The translations under genes were made by a program, and so were the position numbers. Below the pieces are notes generated by a model. It did not search any database, was not told the origin of the DNA, and saw nothing but the letters and a program-made list of their open reading frames with translations. A DNA stretch of 62,267 nt from Muribaculaceae bacterium (GTDB lineage Bacteria; Bacteroidota; Bacteroidia; Bacteroidales; G3-4614). Below are positions 5,160-61,800 of this stretch, in pieces (the stretch's first letter is position 1; the number at the start of each line of letters is the position of its first letter). The stretch lies in contig JAFYRT010000015.1 of the NCBI GenBank assembly GCA_017546805.1, positions 1 to 62,267 of the forward strand, in the 5' to 3' direction.

Positions 5160-5663
5160 ATGCAAAAAAAATACACGAAACACATTTTGATGATGTTGTT
5201 GGTATTCATACCATTTATAGGCATTAAAGCCACTGACTATATGAATGTCTATCTTACATCGCAAGGCTCATTTCAATCTATCAATATAGATGAAATAGAC
5301 AAAATCACCTTCCCCTCTGAAGATGAAGTAAACATCACCATATCGGGTATGGCAACCCCAATGGCAATAGATAATATCGAAGTCATCACCTTTGGCAATA
5401 CCAATATCACCGCCATAGAGGAGAGTGAAGCCAAAGTTGCCGAAATAGATATAACCTACTTAAAAGAAAGCGGTGAGATAAAAGTAACCACACCCGAGGC
5501 AATCAATCTTGTACACCTATACAATATGCAAGGAGTATTGATGCAAACACAAGCACCAAATACCACAGTTGCAACACTCAATGTAGGCGGCTGTCCAAGT
5601 GGAATATATATAGTAGCAGTACAATCAAACGGAAAAACAGAGATAAAGAAGATTATAAAATAG
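5160..5663 (+). CDS. Small secreted protein with a T9SS C-terminal sorting domain
   Basis: The 167 residues begin with a signal peptide (hydrophobic MMLLVFIPFIGI core, likely cleaved near residue 25), followed by a short segment with the Bacteroidetes motif VYLTSQGSFQSINIDEIDKI, the same DID/DSIxF-type motif as in the next gene. The last ~65 residues (LVHLYNMQGVLMQ, then PSGIYIVAVQSNGK and a lysine-rich end) are a type A T9SS sorting domain that directs export across the outer membrane. There is no large cargo domain between signal and tail, which is odd; it may be a small surface protein or a remnant. The hairpin GAGGAAC-ATTC-GTTCCTC at 5666-5683 follows. It is probably transcribed from the promoter at 4758 through RNA A. 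Molecular function unknown. Confidence 0.8.
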   Translation: MQKKYTKHILMMLLVFIPFIGIKATDYMNVYLTSQGSFQSINIDEIDKITFPSEDEVNITISGMATPMAIDNIEVITFGNTNITAIEESEAKVAEIDITYLKESGEIKVTTPEAINLVHLYNMQGVLMQTQAPNTTVATLNVGGCPSGIYIVAVQSNGKTEIKKIIK

Positions 5664-5737: not shown

Positions 5738-5871
5738 TGCGGCTTTGTTAGTTTTTAGTTGTACGGTACTTCGTACCTTAGTTTTTAGCAAATAAAGACT
5801 CTAACAACTAACAACTACCCGCAGGGCGGCAGAGTTTTGCGATGCCGACAACAAACAACTCAAAAAAAAGA

Positions 5872-6645
5872 ATGATGAAAACAAGACTAATCACATTGCT
5901 AATAGCAATAACAACTATAATAGGTAGTGCTTATGCACAAAAGAAAATAGAAGTATATAAAAATGGAGAAGTAGTATATAGTGAATATATTACAGATATA
6001 GATAGTATAAAATTTAAAGAGCAAACAGCGCCTCTGCCCAATACCGAAAACGGACACGAATATGTTGATCTTGGATTGCCTTCAGGAATTAAATGGGCAA
6101 CCTGTAATGTGGGAGCAAATTCACCCGAGGAGTATGGCGATTACTTTGCATGGGGCGAAACCGAGCCAAAAGATTATTATTCTTGGAGTACCTACAAATA
6201 TTGTAATGGTTCATATGATACAATAACCAAATATTGTACAAATTCAAAATATGGCACAGTAGATAATAAAACAACCCTTGAACTCTCAGACGATGCTGCT
6301 CGTGTAAATTGGGGAGGCAGTTGGCGCATGCCAACAAGAGCAGAACAAGATGAATTAGAAAATACCTCAAATTGTACATGGATATGGACCACACAAAACG
6401 GAGTAAAAGGATATAAGGTAACAAGCGTAAAGAACGGTAACTCCATATTTCTTCCTGCGGCGGGCCTTCTCGGCGGCGACGATCTCGACGTTGCAGGCGA
6501 CCTCGGCCGCTTCTGGTTGAATTCGCTCGACCCGACCCCGAACCGCTGCTACAACGCCTCCAACATGGCCTTCAATTCGTTCAACGCGTCCGGGACCTAC
6601 GAATACCGTTACTACAGGCGGTCTGTCCGCGCAGTCTGCGAGTAG
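5872..6645 (+). CDS. FISUMP-like secreted protein with a DGR-type variable C-terminus
   Basis: Signal peptide (MKTRLITLLIAITTIIGSAYAQ), then a KIEVYKNGEVVYSEYITDID motif segment, then a Fibrobacter-paralogous (FISUMP-like) domain beginning HEYVDLGLPSGIKWATCNVG near residue 60. The final ~65 codons (from about 6452) are abruptly GC-rich: 6541-6600 is 34/60 G+C against 17/60 in 6181-6240 of the same gene. They end in SVRAVCE, as does the protein at 59175-61601. FISUMP and C-type-lectin folds are common targets of diversity-generating retroelements in Bacteroidetes, and this C-terminus behaves like a variable repeat. An in-frame ATG at 5842 exists, but the signal peptide begins at the ATG pair 5872/5875, so I use 5872. 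Probable role is display of a binding surface; the ligand is unknown. Confidence 0.82.
   Translation: MMKTRLITLLIAITTIIGSAYAQKKIEVYKNGEVVYSEYITDIDSIKFKEQTAPLPNTENGHEYVDLGLPSGIKWATCNVGANSPEEYGDYFAWGETEPKDYYSWSTYKYCNGSYDTITKYCTNSKYGTVDNKTTLELSDDAARVNWGGSWRMPTRAEQDELENTSNCTWIWTTQNGVKGYKVTSVKNGNSIFLPAAGLLGGDDLDVAGDLGRFWLNSLDPTPNRCYNASNMAFNSFNASGTYEYRYYRRSVRAVCE
6452..6645 (+). repeat. Putative DGR variable repeat, copy 1
   Basis: Codons from CTTCCTGCGGCGGGC to the stop align with 61413-61601 except for a two-codon length difference near the middle. Many mismatched codon pairs differ at positions 1 and 2 and share a third-base pyrimidine (CTT/TAT, CTC/CGC, GGC/TAC, GAT/AAT, CTC/TAC, CGC/TAC, TTC/TAC). 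That is expected if a template rich in AAC/AAT codons was mutated at adenines. The 3' end (TCTGTCCGCGCAGT) is nearly invariant, fitting the conserved initiation segment of DGRs. Confidence 0.65.
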
Positions 6646-42647: not shown

Positions 42648-45233
42648 ATGGCAAGAGAAAATGTGCCTATAAAAGTAGGAATCCTTGATTTATTAGGTGG
42701 TGTTAATGGTGCACAATTTGTAATACCTGCATATCAAAGGAATTATACATGGACGGCAAAGAAAGAAGTTCATCAATTGCTTTATGATTTATTGGCAGTG
42801 TTGACCAAAGAACGTTCTAAACATTTTGTTGGAATAATGATTTATCTTGAAAAATCAATTACTCCGTTTCATTGGGAACGTTCTGTTATTGATGGACAGC
42901 AGCGTTTAACAACTATCTTTTTAACTCTATATGCGGTAAAGGAATTAATGATTGAAAAGGGGATAGCTTTAGATGCAGAAAAGTTAGAGAATCAATATTT
43001 GATAAATCCTTATGATGAGGTTAGTAAATTTAAACTGAAACCCTTGGTCTCTGACGATGAAGTATATCAGCATATAGTAAAAAGAGATTTTGTTAACATA
43101 AAAAATAGGAATTCTAATGTATATAAGAATTTTATCTATATAAAAGACGTGTTAAGAGATGTTTCAGAGAAATATTCTTTTAATGATATTCTTAGAGCTT
43201 TAAATAATTTGTATATAGTATGTGTTCCGATAGGAGAGGATGATTATCCTCAAAAAATATTTGAGAGTATTAATGCTACAGGAATAAAGCTTACAGCTTC
43301 AGATCTTATTCGTAATTTCCTTTTGATGCCTATTGTTAGCGATAAGCAAGATGAATATTACGAAAAATATTGGAAGCAAATTGAAGAACTTGTTGATTAT
43401 GATGCAAAAAAATTAGAAGCATTCTTTCGCTTTTTTATAATGGCAAAAAAAAGAAGTCTTGTTAATAAAAATGCAGTTTATCAACAATTTACAAAATGGT
43501 ATGATGAATATATTATAAATGTTGATATAGAAGACGTCTTTATTGAAATAGTAAATTATGCTAAGTGCTATAATTATTTATATAAAGCTCCGATAGATAA
43601 ACTAGACAAAGATTTAAGAGAATCCATTTTTGAGTTTAGACTTAACTTATCTGATATGCCAGCTCCATTATTAATGGAATTGTATTCAATACATTTATAC
43701 CATTGTGATAACAATGAAAATGAGTTGTCTGCAAAACAATTGTCAGAAATTATTACAATTTTGAATTCATATTTGATGCGTCGCTCTTTGTGTGGTATGG
43801 ATACTAGTGATATATCAAATTATTTCCCTGAATTATTAAGAAGTTTGCTAAATTTCTGCAATGCAGATTATTCTGACATTGTTGAAACTTTTAAACGTTT
43901 CTTGGTAGATAATAATCGCTCTAATGCAAGAGAAATGCCAGATGATAAACGCTTAGTAGAGCGAATAAAGCATGCGAATATGTATAGGTTAAGACAGTGG
44001 GTGAATATATTTTTTCGTAAGTTAGAATCAGATGGAAATCCTGCTCCAGTAGATTTTTCCGCTTTGAGTATTGAGCATTTAATGCCTCAGACACCAACTA
44101 AGTTATGGATGGTAAGCTTGGAGTGTGATGAAGATTCTTATGAGTCAAATGTTAATAGATTAGGGAATTTAACATTAGCTGCGAAATCTGATAATAGTAG
44201 GATGAGTAATAATGTTTGGGAGTATAAGAATAAAATTCTTGCATCAACAAACCATCTAAAGATGAATTCAACTCTATTAGCATGTGATAGATGGAAATTA
44301 GAAAATATAGAGAATAGAACAGATGAACTAATAAAAGAAATTGCTCGTTTGTATCCGTATTACAGCAGTAAGGCAGGTTTTAAAACTTTTCCGTCAAAGA
44401 AAATAGATAGACTCAAAATTTTTATAGAAGATTATGGAATTAAGGCCTCGGCATATTACTATCCTGAGACAGATGCGGTTGAAGTTAAAGCTGGATCTAT
44501 ATTGAGAAATGTAAATGAAGAAGATGATTTTGCAAAACTTTTATCTCCTTTTAGGGAAATGTTACTAAAAAATGGGAGACTCCATAAGGAAAATGATAAG
44601 TTGGTGTTTGCTCAAAATTATCTTTTTGAAAAAGAAGGCTTGGGAATGTCTGCGACTATAATACTCTCTGAATATATTAAGGATCCTGAAATTATTTGGC
44701 ATTTGGCAAATGGATCAACATTGAAAGAATGGAAAGATGCTAGGAGTAATGAATCAATCGAAACTGTTGAAGAAAATTTTGCAGAAAGTGATAGTATAGA
44801 TATTATTTTAAATCATAAGGTAGGAAGTAGATTATTGTTGCAAACGAAAAAAGTTGATTGGTCTTTAATGACAAGTTCTATAACATTATCGAATGAATGT
44901 AGAGAAAAAATTCAAAGTAATGGTGATTGGCGAATGAAAATAAATGAGCGGCGTAACGTGAAAATAATAATAAATGATGAATATTTTGATTCATATATGC
45001 ACTATTATAATTATGATGGTCGTCCTAATCCTGTAATGCAAATAAGATACCCTGGTAGAAAAAGTTTAATTGTTAGTAGGCTTAAAGATATATGCTCTGA
45101 AAAGTATTATGATTTGGAACAAAAACGCTTAAGCGAGGAAAATGGAATAATATATAAAGAGACATCAGGAGATAGATATGTCCATATTTATATGACGGAA
45201 AAACCAAATGTGATTAGGTTTGTTTTTAAGTAA
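42648..45233 (+). CDS. DUF262-DUF1524-DUF4357 protein, GmrSD-like nuclease
   Basis: 861 residues. The N-terminal DUF262 has PAYQRNYTW (27-35) and the NTP-binding VIDGQQRLTT (80-89), plus FESINATGIKLTASDLIRN. The middle DUF1524 carries the HNH/His-Me finger pieces IEHLMPQT (~473-480) and NRLGNLTL (~503-510). A DUF4357-like region (~585-700, GLGMSATIILSEY then NGSTLKEWK) is followed by ~160 residues I do not recognise. GmrSD proteins are type IV restriction nucleases against modified phage DNA, so defence is likely. The gene is more AT-rich and uses AGA/TTA more than its core neighbours (rpmE2, clpB), and the flanking direct repeat suggests insertion. Confidence 0.85.
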   Translation: MARENVPIKVGILDLLGGVNGAQFVIPAYQRNYTWTAKKEVHQLLYDLLAVLTKERSKHFVGIMIYLEKSITPFHWERSVIDGQQRLTTIFLTLYAVKELMIEKGIALDAEKLENQYLINPYDEVSKFKLKPLVSDDEVYQHIVKRDFVNIKNRNSNVYKNFIYIKDVLRDVSEKYSFNDILRALNNLYIVCVPIGEDDYPQKIFESINATGIKLTASDLIRNFLLMPIVSDKQDEYYEKYWKQIEELVDYDAKKLEAFFRFFIMAKKRSLVNKNAVYQQFTKWYDEYIINVDIEDVFIEIVNYAKCYNYLYKAPIDKLDKDLRESIFEFRLNLSDMPAPLLMELYSIHLYHCDNNENELSAKQLSEIITILNSYLMRRSLCGMDTSDISNYFPELLRSLLNFCNADYSDIVETFKRFLVDNNRSNAREMPDDKRLVERIKHANMYRLRQWVNIFFRKLESDGNPAPVDFSALSIEHLMPQTPTKLWMVSLECDEDSYESNVNRLGNLTLAAKSDNSRMSNNVWEYKNKILASTNHLKMNSTLLACDRWKLENIENRTDELIKEIARLYPYYSSKAGFKTFPSKKIDRLKIFIEDYGIKASAYYYPETDAVEVKAGSILRNVNEEDDFAKLLSPFREMLLKNGRLHKENDKLVFAQNYLFEKEGLGMSATIILSEYIKDPEIIWHLANGSTLKEWKDARSNESIETVEENFAESDSIDIILNHKVGSRLLLQTKKVDWSLMTSSITLSNECREKIQSNGDWRMKINERRNVKIIINDEYFDSYMHYYNYDGRPNPVMQIRYPGRKSLIVSRLKDICSEKYYDLEQKRLSEENGIIYKETSGDRYVHIYMTEKPNVIRFVFK

Positions 45234-58539: not shown

Positions 58540-59172
58540 ATGAAAAATAAAATCAAAGAAGTATTGGAAAACTTAAAATTGAAACGTAAAGCATTCTGTT
58601 CAGAAGCAGATTTTCAGTTTGAGTTTGCCTGGGAATTACAAAAAAAATTACCTAAAGCAAAAATCAGATTAGAACGTCCAATATTAATAAATAAAGTTTA
58701 TTATATAGATATTTGGCTAATATATGAAAATAAATATTACCCTATTGAATTAAAGTATAAAACGAGGTTGTCAACTATTATAGATAATGGAGAGGAGATA
58801 GAGTTGGCTAATCATGCGGCAGTAGATTTAGGTTGTTATGCCTATATAAAAGATATTGTTCGTATTGAAGAAATTAAAAACAACATGGGCGAGGAAAAAT
58901 TTGGTGGAGGATTTGCAATAATGCTTACAAATGAACCATTATATTATAGGGATACAAAAAGAAATTCATCATATCAGCAATTTAAAATCTTTGAAAATAG
59001 GGAGATAACGGGTAACCTTTCATGGGGCAAAACACAAACAGGAAATGAATTTGCATTGAAGAAGAAGTTTCCACCTTTAAATCTTAAAGATAAATATAAA
59101 ATATCATGGTTCGACTATTCTATTGTTAATAACAGTCCAAATTTCAAATATACAATAACACACATAAAATAA
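58540..59172 (+). CDS. PD-(D/E)XK-like nuclease-fold protein
   Basis: 210 residues. The N-terminal ~75 residues match the PD-(D/E)XK pattern: a helix with acidic residues (EADFQFEFAWELQKK), then IDIWLIYENKYYPIELKYK, which gives D57 and E70-x-K72. Restriction-like endonucleases of this type are common in defence and mobile genes. The rest is unrecognised. The gene is AT-rich and its stop lies 2 bp before the large lipoprotein gene, so they are translated together. I infer nuclease function only from the motif; an accessory role for the adhesin is possible. Confidence 0.6.
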   Translation: MKNKIKEVLENLKLKRKAFCSEADFQFEFAWELQKKLPKAKIRLERPILINKVYYIDIWLIYENKYYPIELKYKTRLSTIIDNGEEIELANHAAVDLGCYAYIKDIVRIEEIKNNMGEEKFGGGFAIMLTNEPLYYRDTKRNSSYQQFKIFENREITGNLSWGKTQTGNEFALKKKFPPLNLKDKYKISWFDYSIVNNSPNFKYTITHIK

Positions 59173-59174
59173 TT

Positions 59175-61601
59175 ATGAAACACAAACACTTATTAAAAAG
59201 CATACTGTCAGTAATGCTGATAACATTAACTACAGTAATATCAATATTTATAACCTCATGTGCCGAGGAGGAAGAAAACAAATCAAATACAACCCCATCT
59301 GTGTGCAAAGTCTCAGTAATTAGCGGAGAGGGCGGAACAGCAAAAACATCTGAAACAGAATTAATACCCGGTTGGGAGGTAACCATAACCGCAACACCCG
59401 AAGAGACCTACCGTTTTGTAAACTGGACAGTAGGCGGGAAAGAGGTATCAAAAGAAAACCCATATACAATAGCGATAAACCAAAATACACAATTTAAAGC
59501 CAATTTTGAGAAAGATAACTACACCCTCAAAGTAACCGCGGGCGAGGGAGGTGTTGTAAAAGCATCACAAGAGGGCATTGTGTTAAACGGAACAAAAGTC
59601 ACTCTTACTGCTACTCCAAAAGAAGGCTATGGTTTTGTAAATTGGACAGTAAACGGAGAAGAGGTATCAAAAGAAAACCCCTACACAGTAACAATAACAA
59701 ACGACATAGAGTATGTCGCCAACTTCATAACCCATAAAGTAACCGTAATAGCAGGTGAAGGCGGTACAGCCGAAACATCAAAAACACAAGCAGGACATAA
59801 CGAACAAGTAACCCTTACAGCCACTCCCAATGATGGCTACAGCTTTGTCAATTGGACAGTAAACGGAGAAGAAGTATCAAAAGAAAACCCCTACACAGTA
59901 ACCGTAACAAAAGATGTAGAGTATATTGCTAACTTCATAACCCATAAAGTAACTGTAATAGCAGGTGAAGGTGGTACAGCCACAGTCTCAAAAACACAAG
60001 CAGGACATAATGAACAAGTCACTCTTACTGCTACTCCCAACGAAGGCTATAGTTTTGTAAATTGGACAGTAAACGGCGAGGAGGTATCTACATCTGCAAC
60101 ATACACAGTAACCGTAACAAAAGATGTAGAGTATGTCGCTAATTTTATCAGTTATAAAGTAACAGTATTGTCAGGCGAAGGTGGAACAGCCACAGCAAAT
60201 AAAACACAAGTAGGATATAACGGGCAAGTCACCCTCACTGCCACACCCAACGACGGTTATGGTTTTGTTAATTGGACAGTCAACGGAGAGGAAGTATCAA
60301 CCGCGAACCCATATACAGCGACAATAACAGCAAATACAGAGTTTAAAGCCAACTTTATCAGTTATAAAGTATCTGTAATAACAGGTGAGGGCGGAACGGC
60401 TACGGCAAATAAAACACAAGTATCCCCTAACGGACAAGTAACCCTCACCGCCATGCCAAAAGAAGGCTATAGCTTTGTCAATTGGATAGTGGACGGAGTT
60501 GAGGTTTCAAGACAAGCAACATACACCGCAACAATAACAGCAGATACAGAATTTAAAGCCAATTTTATCAGTTATAAAGTAACAGTATTGTCAGGCGAAG
60601 GCGGAACTGCTACAGCAAATAAAGCACAAGTAGGCTATAACGAACAAGTGACCCTCACCGCTACCCCTAACGATGGCTATAGCTTTGTCAATTGGACAGT
60701 AAACGGCGAGGAAGTATCAACATCTGCAACATATACCGCAACAATAACAGCAGATACAGAATTTAAAGCCAACTTTATTAGTTATAAAGTAACCGTAGTA
60801 TCAGGCGAAGGCGGAACCGCCAAAGTGGATAAAACGCAATTAGCACATAACGGACAAGTAACCCTCACCGCCACACCTGAAGAAGATTACTTCTTTGTCA
60901 ATTGGACAGTAAACGGAGAGGAGATATCAACATCTGCAACATATACCGCAACAATAACAGCAGATACAGAATTTAAAGCTAATTTTAGAGAAACATATAA
61001 ACCTACAGGATTAGAAAATGGAAAAGGTTTTGTAGAACTCGGTTTGCCAAGTGGACTAAAATGGGCAACATGCAATGTGGGAGCAACCACACCCGAAGGT
61101 TACGGCGATTACTTTGCTTGGGGCGAGACAGAACCAAAAGACTACTACGATTGGAGCACCTACAAATATTGTAATGGTTCTTCATCAACAATGACCAAAT
61201 ACTATACAAAATCAAGTTATGGCACAGTAGATAATAAAACCACCCTTGAACTCGCGGACGATGCCGCGCATGTAAATTGGGGAGGTAATTGGCGAATGCC
61301 AACAATTGAAGAACAAAAAGAGTTATTGAATAATTGCACTTGGACATGGACAACACAAAACGGAGTAAACGGGTGTAAAGTAACAAGTAAAAGGAACGGT
61401 AACTCCATTTTTCTTCCTGCTGCGGGCTATCGCTACGGCGACAATCTCGACAGTGCGGGCAGTTACGGCTACTACTGGTCGGGTTCGCTCGGCACGTACT
61501 ACAGCGACTACGCTTACCTCGTGTACTTCAGTTCGGACAGCGTAGGTTGGGAGTCCTACGACCGTTGCAGCGGGCAGTCTGTCCGCGCAGTATGCGAGTA
61601 G
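59175..61601 (+). CDS. Surface lipoprotein with eight InlB-type repeats and a DGR-type variable domain
   Basis: 808 residues. A lipoprotein signal (ISIFITSC, lipidation cysteine ~29, followed by acidic AEEEE) is typical of surface-exposed Bacteroidetes lipoproteins. Eight ~68-residue repeats (~43-615) carry the motif GEGGTA...TLTATP..GY.FVNWTVNGEEVS, as in divergent InlB/Listeria-Bacteroides repeats; they likely form a stalk. The final domain (from GKGFVELGLPSGLKWATCNV, ~615) is FISUMP-like, shared with the protein ending at 6645, and its last ~65 codons are GC-rich and hypervariable, ending SVRAVCE. The layout is of a variable-tip adhesin diversified by a retroelement in trans. The next upstream gene, a PD-(D/E)XK-like protein, is 2 bp away. 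Confidence 0.85.
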   Translation: MKHKHLLKSILSVMLITLTTVISIFITSCAEEEENKSNTTPSVCKVSVISGEGGTAKTSETELIPGWEVTITATPEETYRFVNWTVGGKEVSKENPYTIAINQNTQFKANFEKDNYTLKVTAGEGGVVKASQEGIVLNGTKVTLTATPKEGYGFVNWTVNGEEVSKENPYTVTITNDIEYVANFITHKVTVIAGEGGTAETSKTQAGHNEQVTLTATPNDGYSFVNWTVNGEEVSKENPYTVTVTKDVEYIANFITHKVTVIAGEGGTATVSKTQAGHNEQVTLTATPNEGYSFVNWTVNGEEVSTSATYTVTVTKDVEYVANFISYKVTVLSGEGGTATANKTQVGYNGQVTLTATPNDGYGFVNWTVNGEEVSTANPYTATITANTEFKANFISYKVSVITGEGGTATANKTQVSPNGQVTLTAMPKEGYSFVNWIVDGVEVSRQATYTATITADTEFKANFISYKVTVLSGEGGTATANKAQVGYNEQVTLTATPNDGYSFVNWTVNGEEVSTSATYTATITADTEFKANFISYKVTVVSGEGGTAKVDKTQLAHNGQVTLTATPEEDYFFVNWTVNGEEISTSATYTATITADTEFKANFRETYKPTGLENGKGFVELGLPSGLKWATCNVGATTPEGYGDYFAWGETEPKDYYDWSTYKYCNGSSSTMTKYYTKSSYGTVDNKTTLELADDAAHVNWGGNWRMPTIEEQKELLNNCTWTWTTQNGVNGCKVTSKRNGNSIFLPAAGYRYGDNLDSAGSYGYYWSGSLGTYYSDYAYLVYFSSDSVGWESYDRCSGQSVRAVCE
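59300..60990 (+). repeat. Tandem ~204-bp repeats (x8) in the lipoprotein gene
   Basis: Eight copies, with long near-identical stretches between copies (for example around 60151 and 60571). Copy number could change by slipped recombination. Confidence 0.8.
61413..61601 (+). repeat. Putative DGR variable repeat, copy 2
   Basis: In-frame with the lipoprotein. It begins CTTCCTGCTGCGGGC and ends TCTGTCCGCGCAGT. Compare copy 1 at 6452-6645. Confidence 0.65.
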
Positions 61602-61651
61602 TGTGCTTCGCTACAATTAGAAATTAGGAATGAGGAATTATGCGGGTAAGT

Positions 61652-61800
61652 GAGAGCAAAACAAGTTTACTTGAATTTTGCCGAACGTGAGCATAATCAA
61701 GAAACGCATGTTTCTTAATTAGAGATTAAGAGAGAGCAAAACAAGTTTACTTGAATTTTGCCGAACGTGAGCATAATCAAGAAACGTATGTTTCTTAATT
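61652..61800. repeat. Two tandem 69-bp repeats
   Basis: 61652-61720 and 61732-61800 differ by a single base (CGCATG against CGTATG) and are separated by 11 nt. They are inverted members of the family that follows the genes ending at 5663, 6645 and 38816. Confidence 0.8.

Follow-up and report, generated by a model that had tools for sequence, protein, structure and literature searches.

We found that positions 61408–61581 of the window (the whole stretch of DNA analysed here, 62,267 nucleotides, which makes up one entire contig, C19, of a 2.1-Mb Muribaculaceae genome in 75 contigs) are very probably the variable region (VR) of a target gene of a diversity-generating retroelement (DGR), a system in which a reverse transcriptase (RT) scrambles a limited part of a gene; the region would have been rewritten in this lineage from an adenine-mutagenised template. 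The system is of a known kind, with an unusually large set of targets: the gene's last 212 bases match 17 distinct sites in its own genome, counting two pieces on contig C36 as one site and treating an 18-base piece as a chance match. What was originally predicted as a 'second' DGR target is instead one among some 17 copies of the VR in the genome. The DGR reading itself is upheld, and population data were not needed to test it, since relatives of the organism carry both the template repeat (TR) and the RT. The features discussed below are as follows.

59175–61601, forward strand: probable DGR target gene, 808 aa, with lipoprotein signal, InlB-type repeats and C-terminal variable domain
59175–59261, forward strand: predicted lipoprotein signal peptide, FITSC end and then acidic AEEEE, read by eye
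59300–60990, forward strand: eight InlB-type (Flg_new_2, PF18998) repeats, presumed stalk (354 bits versus a cut-off of 23.6)
61002–61598, forward strand: C-terminal Lcl_C/FISUMP-like domain, C-type-lectin-like in model
61408–61581, forward strand: variable region of about 170 nt at the gene's 3' end, probably overwritten recently from a shared template
61578–61598, forward strand: conserved 3' end (SVRAVCE), located where an initiation-of-mutagenic-homing (IMH) segment would be expected
5842–6645, forward strand: second probable DGR target gene of the window, secreted, with an older and more decayed VR
6429–6645, forward strand: VR of the second target (L021), 6 nt above standard length
5160–5663, forward strand: 167-aa gene; its relatives stand immediately before the cassette-linked target in two related genomes (G002 and G006) and the target on contig C41 of the genome itself

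The 808-residue product was put forward as an InlB-repeat lipoprotein. The InlB B-repeat family passes its curated cut-off in eight stretches (E 3.4e-108), and the predicted N-terminus, as judged by eye, is lipoprotein-like (ISIFITSC followed by AEEEE). A stalk-plus-tip design is plausible for this adhesin-like protein, with InlB repeats leading to a domain whose model aligns best to C-type lectin folds. The domain had been described as FISUMP-like and common to two genes of the window, and a common C-terminal domain does indeed end both this ORF and that at 5842–6645, 55 kb away. Its best label is, however, Lcl_C/DUF1566 (PF07603), matched by 32 of 33 relatives (E up to 0.1), as against just 4 of 33 for Fib_succ_major (PF09603). 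The window domain scores 31.1 bits with PF07603, its best-scoring family, below the curated cut-off of 34.9, and is assigned as Lcl_C-like only. An AlphaFold model built with 33 family members as input reached a pLDDT of 74.7 and a pTM of 0.74. Plain Foldseek of this model against the PDB and viral models gave no significant match, and in a second-look structural aligner the top seven alignments were all C-type lectin folds (Z 4.9–6.2; next row Z 3.1), among them the Legionella Lcl C-terminal domain (Z 5.6, 21% identity). At this moderate level of matching (Z 5–6) a C-type lectin fold of the variable domain, a fold frequent though not universal in DGR targets, is likely, if not firm.

The window VR lies inside the coding sequence and holds 57 template-adenine sites between 61429 and 61576, spread over 35 codons in the last quarter of the domain, with 55 of the 57 at codon positions 1 or 2. 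The variable span had been placed from 61413 onward; we delimit the recently rewritten tract at about 61408–61581, with the 'conserved end' falling at or beyond its 3' edge. By analogy with the Bordetella phage BPP-1 system this end, at 61578–61598, may act as the IMH segment; it evolves like ordinary coding sequence and stands outside the rewritten tract. The sequence TCTGTCCGCGCAGT occurs in exactly two copies in the window, at 61578 and 6622; with up to 2 mismatches allowed, the expectation from shuffled sequence was 0.10 matches, and two were never reached in 100 shuffles. The claim that both window genes share a conserved end therefore stands as regards these two exact 14-mer copies, but the conservation is one of protein (SVRAVC) and not of DNA, as third codon positions of the tail differ in 44% of comparisons among 15 copies, and first and second positions in 0%.

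The relatives, whose records are Bacteroidales MAGs (including one from water buffalo cecum and one from water deer rectum), supply the components of the cassette. An RVT_1 domain was found in three of eight genomes of the genus (G002, G004 and G005), the RTs of G002 and G005 being of DGR type and that of G004 retron-like. In G002 the gene order is target VR, a 187-aa accessory gene, an intergenic TR and the RT, and the template, LFLPAAGYRNNSNLNNAGSNGNYWSSSLNTSNSSNAYNLNFNSSNVDWNNNNRYYGQSVRAVCECA, carries AAC, AAT and AGC codons where the VRs vary. The G002 RT carries a GLPIGNLTSQ motif, the SQ form of which marks DGR RTs, together with YVDD. Among solved structures its best relative is chain 8ub7_A (E 3.3e-29), which we take to be a DGR RT structure. 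G006 keeps the same order up to the contig end, which falls inside the RT, and the G005 cassette lacks the accessory gene end, the TR and the RT start. The accessory gene between VR and TR encodes 181–187 aa (2849–3412 of L028 in G002 and 5059–5604 of L061 in G006); it has no match in Pfam, NCBIfam, PHROGs, PADLOC or solved structures, and may play the part of Avd. The G004 enzyme (L026, 1309–2646), related to the RT-protease XI and RT-TIR XII models, was considered as a DGR RT and rejected, leaving G004 with VR genes and no DGR RT.

Compared with their own TR, three VRs of G002 are changed at 20, 23 and 22 of 52 adenines and at 0, 1 and 1 of 101 other positions, and two VRs of G006 at 28 and 34 of 55 adenines and at 0 of 98 other positions in both. 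A fourth, older VR of G002 differs from its TR at 26 of 50 adenines and 23 of 100 non-adenines. For the window VR a proxy TR from another species (G006) was used, and the changes again fall on adenines (30 of 55, versus 7 of 98 elsewhere; p 1e-10), a contrast that is conservative because a template from another species inflates the non-adenine count. The substitutions at template adenines in the G002 and G006 VRs comprise 106 A to G, 66 A to T and 10 A to C, A to C being strongly short in these AAC-rich templates.

Within the genome itself the same specificity is seen between the window VR (L007) and its closest sister (L008), which differ at 24 of 57 adenine columns (42%) and 2 of 96 others (2%), columns being assigned from the TRs of the relatives. 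Third codon positions of this pair differ at 45 of 130 sites upstream (35%), at only 2 of 57 within the VR (4%), and at 5 of 6 in the tail, so that the copied tract has two sharp edges. Pairwise comparison of 15 copies from the genome gives divergences at the first, second and third codon positions of 0.14/0.15/0.36 for the domain upstream, 0.40/0.37/0.19 for the VR itself and 0/0/0.44 for the six-residue tail, the inversion being confined to the VR. Recent copying of a tract from one template, combined with scrambling of its adenines, is what marks mutagenic retrohoming.

The 17 VRs are found in diverse genes. Some carriers are InlB-repeat proteins, several with a lipoprotein-like N-terminus (C3, C55, C42, C2 and C19), others are shorter secreted proteins, and a long protein on C33 looks, by eye, FGE-sulfatase-like upstream of its VR. 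Two genes (C48 and C43) hold a tandem pair of VR domains; one C43 copy is cut by the contig end, and the C36 copy is internally shortened. The VRs also differ in age. Six of them (L007–L012, including the window VR) share one backbone with a non-adenine divergence of 0.053, compared with 0.094 and 0.21 in the other groups, and the window VR belongs by this measure to the most recently rewritten group, whereas L021 at 6429–6645 is among the most decayed.

We propose that a DGR RT prone to misreading adenines would convert an RNA copy of the AAC-codon-rich template into cDNA, which would overwrite the gene's 3' end between limits at about ATTTTTCTTCC and TCTGT. As many as 35 residues of the C-type-lectin-like domain at the tip of the InlB-repeat stalk could thereby be randomised. 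This variable tip would presumably be displayed on the cell surface, and would presumably vary what is bound; the window target may also be active at present. One template family would in this way have rewritten the roughly 17 VRs dispersed over the genome, by means of a trans-acting RT and TR that probably either sit in unassembled sequence or were recently lost.

RVT_1, protein and VR DNA searches of the 75 contigs of the genome itself, an assembly estimated to be 96.6% complete, detected neither an RT nor a TR nor an accessory gene. This, as well as the state of the cassette in other members of the genus, lends some weight to the view that the window VR was made by a DGR whose RT–TR cassette has since been lost, the sequence being now frozen and drifting like that of any gene. 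G004, at 99% completeness, retains five VRs, and yet at its locus homologous to that of G002 (flank 98% identical) the 3' end of the VR is left and the approximately 2.3 kb holding accessory gene, TR and RT is absent; G005, as noted, has a damaged cassette. Furthermore, the six recent VRs of the genome differ at 5.3% of non-adenine sites, versus 1.4–1.6% among the recent VRs of TR-bearing genomes (and 0.30 in G005). On the other hand, because the window VR and L008 differ at just 2 of 96 non-adenine columns, activity was recent. In addition, contig ends are enriched in VRs, 7 of the 17 being within 1 kb of one (P 9e-5), and the cassette may simply have gone unassembled. We regard a frozen, orphaned target as a real possibility though not the probable one, and the cassette may be missing because of a gap in the assembly, may have been lost, or may be supplied in trans. 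On the sequence distances, the DGR of this genome was itself active recently, perhaps less recently than those of G002 and G006.

Several places where a cassette might have been expected were examined and discarded. At the trigger-factor locus homologous to that of G002 the contig is continuous, with neither target nor cassette, and behind the C41 target, whose architecture resembles that of the cis target in G006, lies a long opposite-strand ORF instead. A known phage or plasmid source of the RT was likewise rejected, with no IMG/VR relative and all phage and plasmid RTs less than 60% identical (28–38% among those listed). The TR pattern had a single match in viral contigs, inside a tail-sheath-like ORF, and this was taken as chance. 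On a speculative and on balance unlikely view, the RT–TR cassette would be a transient visitor, and the VR surface genes stable residents, many of which are rewritten in trans on each visit: the state of the cassette varies through the genus, with different surroundings in G002 and G006, absence from G004, a deletion in G005 and none seen here.

The same enrichment near contig ends, in so fragmented an assembly, might suggest that strain mixtures or mis-binned contigs have swollen the count of 17, yet we consider this very improbable, given that contamination is estimated at 0.06%, that several VRs lie deep inside contigs of 31–116 kb with distinct genes upstream, and that the relatives too have up to 7 matches each. 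Finally, an ordinary paralog family shaped by positive selection and gene conversion, with no retroelement involved, would suit the many paralogs of one surface domain and their high first- and second-position divergence, but it is scarcely credible and is rejected because of the adenine specificity: gene conversion would level adenine and other columns alike, which the L007/L008 pair contradicts, and selection would ignore the template, whereas the VRs of the relatives change at template adenines and almost nowhere else, the template itself adjoining an RT.

Among the closest counterparts is the DGR of Treponema denticola (TvpA and remote targets; PMC4891356), in which one template likewise serves several dispersed targets, many of them predicted lipoproteins, an accessory gene is part of the cassette, and some strains have targets and no core cassette. 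That system belongs to another host phylum and has two to seven targets, compared with about 17 VRs here, and its accessory genes are annotated with helicase or RNaseD-type domains, whereas the present one matches nothing. DUF1566/Fib_succ_major targets from the human gut (PMC4159848) are alike in domain type, C-terminal VR and adenine-specific changes, and target contigs lacking an RT are on record there; they are single metagenome contigs, in contrast to the repertoire of an entire genome, in which there are InlB-repeat stalks, tandem VRs and VRs of layered ages. Thiohalocapsa PB-PSB1 (PMC10907252) also has many VRs per genome, 21 in 15 targets, with several VRs in a single protein and targets possibly served in trans, but in nine distinct DGR loci with conflict-system targets, as opposed to one template family with secreted or lipoprotein targets. 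BPP-1 (PMC12875486) shares the adenine-specific rewriting of AAC codons and a TR–RT cassette with a small gene near the TR; its target is a phage one, while here the targets are cellular, no constant 3' hairpin is present and A to C is rare.

Our data stand out for the roughly 17 VRs that one template family has in a 2.1-Mb gut Bacteroidales genome, more than the seven targets of the T. denticola system, and for changes of length that stay in frame. This genome would be wholly overlooked by surveys that require an RT no more than 1 kb from a repeat, and the 2021 global DGR survey states that remote targets were beyond its detection. With VRs of layered ages, from fresh to decayed, one can study the rate at which each target is rewritten and the fate of targets after a cassette departs.

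VR lengths were seen to vary by whole codons (-3 to +12 nt), both in the genome itself (L015, L017, L018, L019 and L021) and in relatives (G006_C70, G004_C9, G004_C12b, G004_C14 and G004_C18), and some of these changes fall in template AAC runs. G006_C70 has one extra codon, its remaining differences being 27 of 55 at adenines and 1 of 98 elsewhere. In-frame indels in AAC repeats of the BPP-1 DGR have been attributed to slippage (PMC12875486).

An IMH segment at a VR 3' end is often accompanied by a DNA hairpin; in this genome hairpins follow many, not all, of the VRs. An element of about 120 bp with two hairpins lies 3' of the stops of six VR genes (L009, L010, L013, L018, L019 and L020; 88–100% identity), its loop ATTC being kept while the stem sequence changes between copies. 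We rejected it as VR-specific: a 20-nt pattern matched VR loci only, but a longer query found it dispersed elsewhere in the genome at lower identity, and inverted relatives occur in the window at 61650–61715 and 61734–61798. As to other genes of the window, the neighbour at 58540–59172, taken at first to be nuclease-like, shows nothing beyond a TnsA-like match below threshold (E 0.088, 13.8 bits versus a cut-off of 26.5), and has no NCBIfam or PADLOC match. The 861-aa protein encoded at 42648–45233 matches the PADLOC 'Orf5' models (E 6e-99), and the HEC-06 and SspE models more weakly, and is possibly the product of an anti-phage defence gene.
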